A DNA stretch of 62,187 nucleotides, from positions 1-62,187 of the forward strand of contig JAVYMA010000012.1 in the NCBI GenBank assembly GCA_038740345.1, read 5' to 3'. This document shows, piece by piece, positions 32,321-35,155 of this stretch. The notes below the pieces were generated by a model that saw only the letters and a list, made by a program, of their open reading frames with translations, did no database searches and was not told the origin of the DNA. Each line of letters opens with the position of its first letter. Positions within the stretch are counted from its first letter, which is position 1. The position numbers and the translations under genes were made by a program. Origin of the DNA: Methanomassiliicoccales archaeon (lineage in GTDB: Archaea > Thermoplasmatota > Thermoplasmata > Methanomassiliicoccales > UBA472).

Positions 32321-33667
32321 ATGGACGAAGTGCCCCTTCCCCAAAGGCCTGATATTGATGCGCACAATGAGATAGCTATAGAGGAAAAATGGAGAAAAGC
32401 GAATGAGCCGGCACTTCTCGCGTCGAAGAAACATCTTTTCTATAGGGGAAAATTGGCATAGCCCCAAAGTGTCCCGTGAGAGATGTTTGCGACTTCGCGA
32501 CATGGTATACGCCTGGAGTTGCAGAGCCATGCAAAGAGATCGAGAATGATCCTTCGTTAGCTTATCTTTATACAAATAAATGGAATATGGTAGCTGTCGT
32601 TACGGACGGAACAAGAGTGCTTGGCCTAGGTGATATCGGCCCTCTAGCTAGTCTTCCTGTTATGGAAGGAAAGCCCCTCATCTTCAAGCACTTGGGGGGG
32701 ATTGGACGCGGTTCCTATTTGTCTGGCCACGAAAGAAGAGGAAGAAATCGTCCGCACAGTGGAATTGTTGTCCCCTTCTTTCGGGGGAATCAATCTAGAA
32801 GATATATTCCAGCCTAAATGCTTCCGTATATTGGATTCTCTTAGATCCAGTTTGGACATTCCTGTTTGGCATGACGATCAGCAAGGAACCGCAACTGTTG
32901 TTCTAGCCGCTCTAATCAACTCTCTCAAGTTGGTGGGGAAGAGTATTTAGAAAATCGACATCGCCATGATAGGTGCGGGAGCGGCTAATATGGCAATCTC
33001 TCGCCTACTGGTAGCTGCTGGCGCAGATATTGGCAGGATTGTTATGACTGATTCCCGCGGTATACTTGGTCCGTGGCGCAAGGAGTTGAAGAGAGATTAT
33101 CGAGAAAAATGGGACATCGCTATCCATTCAAACAGGGAAGGAAAAGTGGGAGGAGTTAGCGAAGCGATCAAAGATGCGGATGTGGTGATAGCAGCTTCAC
33201 GGCCAGGCCCAGGAATAGTGACCAAAAGCATGGTGGCCTCGATGGCCGACTATGCCATCGTGTTCGCGACCGCTAACCCTATACCTGAAATTTGGCCCTG
33301 GGAAGCCATGGAGGCAGGGGCGAAGATTGTATCCACTGGGCGTTCGGATTTTCCCAATCAGGTGAATAACTCCTTGGCTTTCCCGGCAATCTTCAGGGGG
33401 GTTCTCGATGTTAGGGCTAGCTCTATTACCGAAGAGATGTGCTTAGCCGCAGCAATGGAATTGGCACTTGCCGCCGAGGAAAAGGGTCTTTCTCCTTCAT
33501 GCATCATCCCGTCGATGGCGGATTGGGAGGTCTTCCCAAGAGTGGCGGTCGCCGTGGGCATGAAGGCCATAGAGCAAGGGGTGGCAAAGAATATACTTGG
33601 AAAGAAAGAACTCAACCTAAATGTTCACTTTATTATTTCCCGCGCCCGCCAAGAAATGGAGGCCTAG
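32321..33667 (+). pseudogene. Malic enzyme (NAD(P)-dependent), disrupted
   Basis: Three pieces of one malic enzyme lie in order. Piece one (32321 to ~32450) reads in one frame to LFYRGK. Continuation GIAPKCPVRDV needs an extra base in the A-run at 32449-32452. The second piece ([30 protein letters not shown]) runs to the seven-G run at 32694-32700, where removing one G restores [12 protein letters not shown]. An in-frame TAG at 32948-32950 then interrupts LVGKSI/KIDIAMIGAGAANMAI before the Rossmann NAD site. The rest, including the cofactor domain, is intact to 33667. The enzyme oxidatively decarboxylates malate to pyruvate. Both frameshifts are in homopolymers, so sequencing error remains possible for those, less so for the TAG. 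Confidence 0.8.
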
Positions 33668-34172: not shown

Positions 34173-34615
34173 AGCGCTCGCCGAGGCATGATTATGCTAC
34201 TTATATTTATACGTGAGTGGTTTCGAACTCTCAGCCTTATTCAATTTTTTTCACCCAGATGGAGATATATTACCCTCGAGTGAACATTGATGGAATAATC
34301 TATTTTAACGCGCATTTCGCAGATTTTTCAGGAAGGCTGCTGCGATTTACGGGGAAGTTTCGCTTTAACTATATAATTCCAAGAAAATGTAATTCCAAGA
34401 AAATGGAGCATTTCCGGTCAGATCTCAGTAAGGGTTTGAGGTGCAAGCTTGAGGTGTGAAAAATGATGTTTTCTAACCTCTCGATAAAAATTCAAAGGGA
34501 AGGAGCTGAATAATCTGGTAATCTTATCCATTGAAAAATCAGCATCCGCATACCCAAGCTTTAAATAATGGCACTCTTTTCTGCCAAATCCGCATCGCCG
34601 GAAGCACTTGCCAAT
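34173..34615. other. Gap between zinc-finger gene and tRNA-Lys
   Basis: No gene is supported here. It holds the minus-strand promoter of the zinc-finger/EF-1beta pair (TATAAATATAAG on the minus strand near 34200-34211) and the tRNA-Lys promoter (CTTTAAATAATGG, about 34559-34571). An open frame at 34217-34459 has no start signal and low-complexity content and is rejected. Confidence 0.5.
34374..34405. repeat. Perfect 16-bp tandem repeat
   Basis: TAATTCCAAGAAAATG occurs twice head to tail without a gap. No function is evident; it looks like a small replication slippage duplication. Confidence 0.8.
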
Positions 34616-34637
34616 GGGCCCGTAGCTCAGCTAGGTA

Positions 34638-34668
34638 GGGGGCTTGCAGGGCTGAGCCTCCCTAGAAA
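34638..34668 (+). other. tRNA-Lys intron 1 (D arm, ~31 nt)
   Basis: This interrupts the D arm between the loop GGTA and the 3' strand GAGC. Folding of the precursor pairs CTAGG (34631-34635) with CCTAG (34661-34665), leaves a three-base TAG bulge at the 5' junction, and extends into GGGGCT/AGCCTC (one G-U). The 3' junction has AAA before GAGC, opposite an AG, so the bulge-helix-bulge is relaxed. The exact 3' cut could be one base earlier (30 nt). Confidence 0.75.
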
Positions 34669-34706
34669 GAGCACCTGGCTTTTAACCAGATGGTCCGGGG
34701 TTCGAA

Positions 34707-34738
34707 GAGCCGTCGGTCAACAACCGAGGGGACGAAAA
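34707..34738 (+). other. tRNA-Lys intron 2 (T loop, 32 nt, position 59/60)
   Basis: The T stem GGGG/CCCC stacks on a 4-bp helix TTCG/CGAA, with three-base bulges AAG on the 5' side and AAT on the 3' side. This is the canonical bulge-helix-bulge cut by archaeal splicing endonuclease. Cutting after the second base of each bulge removes 34707-34738 and gives TTCGAAT exactly. The intron itself has a CGGT/ACCG hairpin. Confidence 0.85.
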
Positions 34739-34815
34739 TCCCCGCGGGCCCGCCTTGGATAGGAAGTGAGGGGCAGAAATGGAAGCCGCAAACGCGAAAA
34801 CCAACATTCGATGCA

Positions 34816-34825: not shown

Positions 34826-34876
34826 GCCACTACATAGTAGAAAGAACGGTCCGGAACGAGGGGCGAGGTGATTTTC

Positions 34877-35155
34877 GTGGAGGAGGATATCCAGCTTAAT
34901 GTATTTAATCATGATTTAGTGCCTGCACATTATTTGTTGACAGAGGAAGAAGCCAAGGAAGTCTTGGCCAAACTCAAAGTTGACAAGGATAAACTGCCGA
35001 AAATCCGCAAGAGCGATCCGTGCATAAGACTTTTGGATGCCTTGGAGCAGGAGGCAGGAAGGCCAGCAATAAAGGAGGGGCGTGTGGTGAAAATCGTGCG
35101 TCGCTCCCCTACTTCTGAAATAGCGATAGCATATCGATTGGTAATAAGAGGGTGA
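34877..35155 (+). CDS. rpoH: RNA polymerase subunit H (Rpb5-like)
   Basis: About 92 residues from GTG 34877, chosen because GAGGTG lies six bases before it; GTG 34868 is only part of that same site. The sequence matches archaeal RpoH ([44 protein letters not shown], ending [14 protein letters not shown]). It forms part of the jaw at the downstream DNA entry. It overlaps rpoB by 4 bases (GTGA). Confidence 0.95.

Follow-up and report, generated by a model that had tools for sequence, protein, structure and literature searches.

Reviews of archaeal tRNA splicing describe the Euryarchaeota as having one canonical intron, removed by strict endonucleases of the alpha4 or alpha'2 type (PMC4090602, PMC4033280, PMC6379350), with Methanopyrus kandleri and Methanothermobacter thermautotrophicus as multi-intron exceptions. 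Several short introns per tRNA that resemble the bulge-helix-bulge (BHB) motif, lie outside site 37/38 and are missed by standard gene finders have been reported from the Thermoproteota and Thaumarchaeota, whose enzymes are of the (alpha-beta)2 type, with a specificity loop (CSL) in the crenarchaeal enzymes (PMC8450103, PMC3218864). Multiple introns also occur in euryarchaeal tRNAs of M. kandleri, M. thermautotrophicus and, in tRNA-Pyl, Methanohalarchaeum HMET1 (PMC4033280, PMC9071458), as isolated cases. The Asgard archaea Atabeyarchaeia and Freyarchaeia are likewise rich in noncanonical introns, of which a single gene often holds several, and 92-95% of their tRNA genes have an intron (PMC11291895). 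The splicing endonuclease (EndA) of Korarchaeum cryptofilum is a single-chain homodimer that occurs together with noncanonical introns and carries a specific loop (PMC4033280). Within the Thermoplasmata, the EndA of Thermoplasma and Ferroplasma (alpha'2) is also a single chain (PMC6379350, PMC8707768). We found no paper describing such introns in the Thermoplasmata in the open-licence literature.

Here we describe a tRNA-Lys(UUU) gene with two noncanonical introns from a Methanomassiliicoccales archaeon (GCA_038740345.1, contig JAVYMA010000012.1). The window referred to below is the whole stretch of DNA that was analyzed, 62,187 nucleotides in length. The introns are of a known kind, in an unexpected clade and with an unexpected enzyme. 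They are short, BHB-like and overlooked by standard finders, as in the Thermoproteota and Thaumarchaeota. However, the enzyme here is one fused chain without the loop, and many families have kept introns at this one pair of sites. The intron load of the Asgard lineages is far higher, and that clade is unrelated. A first-pass annotation of this DNA correctly took the host to be Thermoplasmata-like; it also stated that multiple noncanonical introns are known mainly from the Thermoproteota, a statement that leaves out the Thaumarchaeota, Korarchaeota, Nanoarchaeota, ARMAN, three thermophilic euryarchaeal methanogens and the Asgard archaea.

Structure of the tRNA-Lys(UUU) gene

The gene lies at positions 34616-34752 (plus strand; coordinates exact) and is interrupted in the D loop and the T loop. 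Its parts and surroundings, all on the plus strand, are as follows.

34560-34567, plus: TATA-like TTTAAATA upstream of the gene, a candidate picked by eye
34616-34636, plus: exon 1, tRNA positions 1-20 (ARAGORN on the spliced form)
34631-34634, plus: D-site central helix, 5' strand, CUAG; pairs with 34662-34665, with compensatory changes across families
34637-34667, plus: D-loop intron, 31 nt, site 20/21; predicted cleavage GU|A and AA|A
34638-34661, plus: inner stem-loop of the D intron; GGGGGCU (34638-34644) pairs with AGCCUCC (34655-34661), 7/7
34662-34665, plus: D-site central helix, 3' strand, CUAG
34668-34706, plus: exon 2, tRNA positions 21-59; anticodon UUU at 34681-34683
34701-34704, plus: T-site central helix, 5' strand, UUCG; pairs with 34733-34736
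34707-34738, plus: T-loop intron, 32 nt, site 59/60; predicted cleavage AA|G and AA|U
34733-34736, plus: T-site central helix, 3' strand, CGAA
34739-34752, plus: exon 3, tRNA positions 60-73
34868-35155, plus: RpoH-like open reading frame (ORF) downstream of the gene, a neighbor also in the named relatives L033 and L034

The canonical site 37/38 is uninterrupted, and the measured lengths and sites agree with the first-pass annotation, which had proposed a ~31-base intron in the D arm and a 32-base intron in the T loop (59/60). Its central proposal, that this tRNA-Lys(UUU) has two introns at noncanonical sites and that both can be spliced out, is likewise borne out: the joined exons give 74 nt, and ARAGORN recognizes a tRNA-Lys(ttt) once both introns are removed but calls no tRNA in the unspliced or in either singly spliced form. 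As with other noncanonical archaeal BHB introns, intron removal thus yields a standard tRNA. The intact gene is missed by both ARAGORN and Rfam cmscan, and the window yields just tRNA-Gly(CCC). The first 21-23 bases at the 5' end of the tRNA are identical in tRNA-Lys(CUU) and in intronless orthologues. Elsewhere in the window, at 32476-33667, three ORFs (32476-32817, 32702-32950 and 32966-33667) together make up what looks by eye like a malic-enzyme-like gene; a frameshift, a pseudogene or a sequencing error may account for the breaks.

At both sites, a fully paired 4-bp central helix (4/4) lies between two splice bulges. The D site has the central helix CUAG:CUAG, a 5' bulge GUA, a 3' bulge AAA and a strong inner helix (7/7). 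Its outer side is an internal loop in which A14-G15 lie opposite the 3' bulge, and the adjacent outer helix is absent, as it is from the D motif of 76/76 intron-bearing genes. At the T site, the T stem is fully paired (5/5) and the central helix UUCG:CGAA is bordered by the bulges AAG and AAU; the inner side begins, in this gene, with A-A and G-G mismatches. The T-loop motif had been called an exact BHB, which is accurate for the helix and the bulges but not for this inner side. In strict hBHBh' motifs, a flanking helix abuts the bulges on either side, and this arrangement is lacking on the outer side at the D site and on the inner side at the T site. Both motifs are therefore relaxed on one side and represent the bulge-helix-loop (BHL) form. 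An alternative D-site splice, TA|G with AAA|G, gives the same product but is less fitting; GU|A is preferred because the first intron base varies between A and T among relatives, while the exon is constant.

The whole precursor RNA folds better than shuffled sequences (z = -2.9), and its minimum-energy fold departs partly from the expected precursor. Comparative evidence outweighs folding energy as support for the precursor structure.

Conservation and covariation of the introns

We parsed 91 Lys(UUU) genes of the class Thermoplasmata, among which 73 have both introns, 3 the D intron only, 1 the T intron only and 14 neither. ARAGORN called all spliced orthologues Lys(ttt) (91/91) and called 15/91 unspliced. 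The exons are near-invariant across the class, and the introns vary yet keep their stems. Full pairing of the central helix (4/4) was found at 74/76 D sites and 73/74 T sites (147/150 combined).

From family to family, both strands of the D-site helix differ, as in CUAG:CUAG, CCAG:CUGG, GUAG:CUAC, AUAG:CUAU and CUCG:CGAG. Twelve of the 14 distinct combinations pair fully, compared with 2.7 after shuffling, and 12 was reached in 0/20,000 shuffles. Pairing of the inner stems at both sites likewise exceeded all 5,000 shuffles (0/5,000 for the D intron). These shuffle tests use distinct combinations and are otherwise blind to kinship. The T-site central helix gave no permutation signal (P = 0.66); covariation is weak there because the exon-side UUCG is nearly constant. 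Taken together, conservation and covariation exclude a chance origin of the motifs.

The splice borders are marked by lineages that carry the predicted junction sequence in place of one or both introns. The D intron is missing precisely at its predicted borders in L139, L140 and L176-L187, and the T intron in G009 (L060), L155, L159 and L275-L276.

Distribution across the class and phylum

For the survey, families were labelled f1, f2 and so on, and counts refer to genomes that match an anticodon-stem search pattern. In f1, 19/22 genomes have both introns, and G009 has the D intron only. Both introns were also read in the matched genomes of f2-f5, which belong to the same order. No intron was found in f6, neither in the 12 genomes checked nor in L138-L140; we infer that this family is Methanomethylophilaceae-like. 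In other orders, both introns occur in f8, f10, f11, f12, f17, f19 and f21; f9 has the D intron only, with a single T-only case in f8 and a single D-only case in f12. In f17 (L208, L209, L210), the tRNA-Lys(UUU) has three interruptions, in the D loop, the anticodon stem region and the T loop. Families f22-f26 are intronless in the genomes read. Outside the class, the T intron alone occurs in f33 and most of f34 and the D intron alone in f36, and neither was found in f31, f32, f37, f40, f41, f42 and f43.

This distribution suggests that the intron pair is old. Most of the class probably inherited it from a common ancestor, and it was probably lost at least once, in f6, since f6 nests inside the intron-bearing families in an EndA tree (EndA is not a species marker). 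The introns are thus kept across deep branches in much of the class, including the methanogen order Methanomassiliicoccales, together with an enzyme that lacks the supposedly required loops. The first-pass annotation had called such introns unexpected in a euryarchaeon. The reviews do state the opposite of what is seen here, but the introns are not the oddity of one genome.

Splicing enzymes

The genome has a single EndA ORF of 357 amino acids (aa) with two PF01974 domains in a fused beta-alpha arrangement, and one gene for RtcB (E = 4e-179). The best PDB match of the EndA is M. kandleri 5x89 (E = 6e-37; query 6-343, nearly the whole length), followed by A. fulgidus; ARMAN 4fz2 (epsilon2 type, alphaN-alpha-betaC order) aligns to the C half only. 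The M. kandleri enzyme likewise lacks the CSL and the ARMAN specificity loop (ASL) but has separate alpha and beta subunits. The catalytic Y, H and K are present in the C-terminal unit (FRVY, HHSRYLV and KKDILF, aligned with A. fulgidus). By sequence, this EndA would be of the alpha'2 type, with two fused units in one chain, and is predicted to form a dimer. It is longer than that of Thermoplasma (357 versus 289 aa) and has two PF01974 domains that are both complete, and f26, which we tentatively regard as Thermoplasmatales-like, combines an intronless Lys(UUU) with a short EndA. The EndA tree places the intron-bearing families in one group, with f22-f26 outside it.

The first-pass annotation took the introns to imply a broad-specificity endonuclease, and a specialized enzyme, with a CSL- or ASL-like loop, a second subunit or an extra factor, could in principle permit them. 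Noncanonical introns are tied to such loops in reviews, and the relaxed D and T motifs of this gene would suit an enzyme of that kind. However, one EndA ORF is all that the genome offers. The known loops, with their conserved Lys, are inserted in the catalytic unit at the point flanked by FYG and LSLIE, where the CSL chimera 3p1y shows its insertion and where this EndA is ungapped against A. fulgidus. Among 43 EndA sequences, none that aligns at this point has a loop insertion (G248 and G263 failed to align), in contrast to the loop-bearing enzyme of K. cryptofilum. A survey of 42 genomes is more favorable to a specialized enzyme: every sampled Lys-intron family has the long form with a complete second PF01974 domain, versus one complete match in f22-f26, and all genomes sampled with that latter form belong to families with an intronless Lys(UUU). 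The enzyme may thus differ from the studied Thermoplasma type, but the long two-domain form is also found in f6, whose Lys(UUU) has no intron. Furthermore, according to Tocchini-Valentini and co-author, BHL-like motifs are cut by homodimers (PMC8707768), and the EndA of A. fulgidus is able to excise 37/38 BHL introns from full-length pre-tRNA (PMC6379350). Relaxed cutting by the present EndA is therefore plausible without a loop, and we consider a specialized endonuclease unlikely; none is evident in the genome.

It is far less probable that the gene is a decayed copy whose inserts stay in the RNA, with another tRNA-Lys(UUU) reading AAA. The first-pass annotation had named a second intact gene, with this copy silent, as an observation that would refute its own reading, and searches of the genome (1.79 Mb, 47 contigs, 99% complete) with the gene itself, an anticodon-arm pattern and the tRNA family found no second Lys(UUU); the other tRNA-Lys found is an intact Lys(CUU). 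In this 47-contig assembly we did not find about eight of the expected tRNAs (Ala CGC, Ile GAU, some Leu, Arg, Ser UGA), which may lie in assembly gaps or be concealed by more introns. Most genomes are fragmented drafts, and there is a small chance that a second Lys(UUU) sits in a gap. However, the single-contig genome G010 has the same gene and no other match to the anticodon-arm pattern, and near-invariant exons next to variable introns with maintained stems count against a pseudogene. AAA codons are common in neighboring genes (for Lys, the three RNA polymerase ORFs next to the gene use 60 AAA and 71 AAG), and a UUU tRNA is therefore needed. An assembly error or chimeric insertion, conceivable for one draft assembly, can practically be dismissed because the arrangement is conserved, being repeated in dozens of independent assemblies from many families, including the public records L033 and L034.

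Proposed splicing pathway

We are confident that the best explanation is that this sole detected tRNA-Lys(UUU) contains two BHL introns, cut by the fused homodimeric EndA, with the exons joined by RtcB. The introns are, with high likelihood, spliced. The pre-tRNA would fold locally into two BHL motifs, one in the D loop and one in the T loop. The single alpha'2-type EndA would cut GU|A and AA|A at the D site and AA|G and AA|U at the T site, and RtcB would then join the three exons into the standard 74-nt tRNA. Cleavage, ligation and the order of these steps are proposed from the gene and enzyme sequences. As both introns interrupt the loops that form the elbow, the enzyme must recognize at least the D motif locally. 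Against this explanation, reviews describe alpha'2 enzymes as narrow, and the D motif has no adjacent outer helix. The splicing enzyme must exceed its textbook range.

More tentatively, a large archaeal class may splice relaxed introns in both elbow loops of an essential tRNA by means of a loop-less fused beta-alpha homodimer, a generalization that we put forward as possible rather than probable. If true, it would represent a form of relaxed-motif recognition different from the CSL, the ASL or the eukaryotic mature-domain ruler, and it would break the proposed link of specificity loops to noncanonical introns. The hypothesis of endonuclease-intron coevolution becomes directly testable in this class.

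Other tRNA introns in the genome

Further interrupted tRNA genes were found in the same genome. A D-loop or D-arm intron is present in tRNA-Thr(GGU) (G000:C9 12014-12110; L017), tRNA-Val(UAC) (G000:C9 15514-15618; L018) and tRNA-Thr(CGU) (G000:C2 2230-2328; L020), the last of which resembles a strict BHB by eye. Removal of the intron gives the expected tRNA in all three cases, and ARAGORN misreads or misses the unspliced genes. The tRNA counts of Thermoplasmata genomes are therefore probably incomplete where the finder cannot handle such introns.

The tRNA-Arg(UCU) gene (G000:C3 73812-73932; L042) has an anticodon-loop intron, with borders approximate to within about one base, and a second intron in the T loop, positioned as in Lys and with the central helix UUCG:CGAA. 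When more T-loop introns of the TTCRA..YGAAA type were sought, plausible matches came only from Lys(UUU) and Arg(UCU). The pattern searches for the missing tRNAs gave tRNA-Trp(CCA), and their remaining matches were not tRNA-like. This tRNA-Trp(CCA) gene (G000:C3 ~73456-73626; L096) lies about 200 bases from tRNA-Arg(UCU) and has an anticodon-loop intron of about 100 nt with box C/D-like motifs inside.
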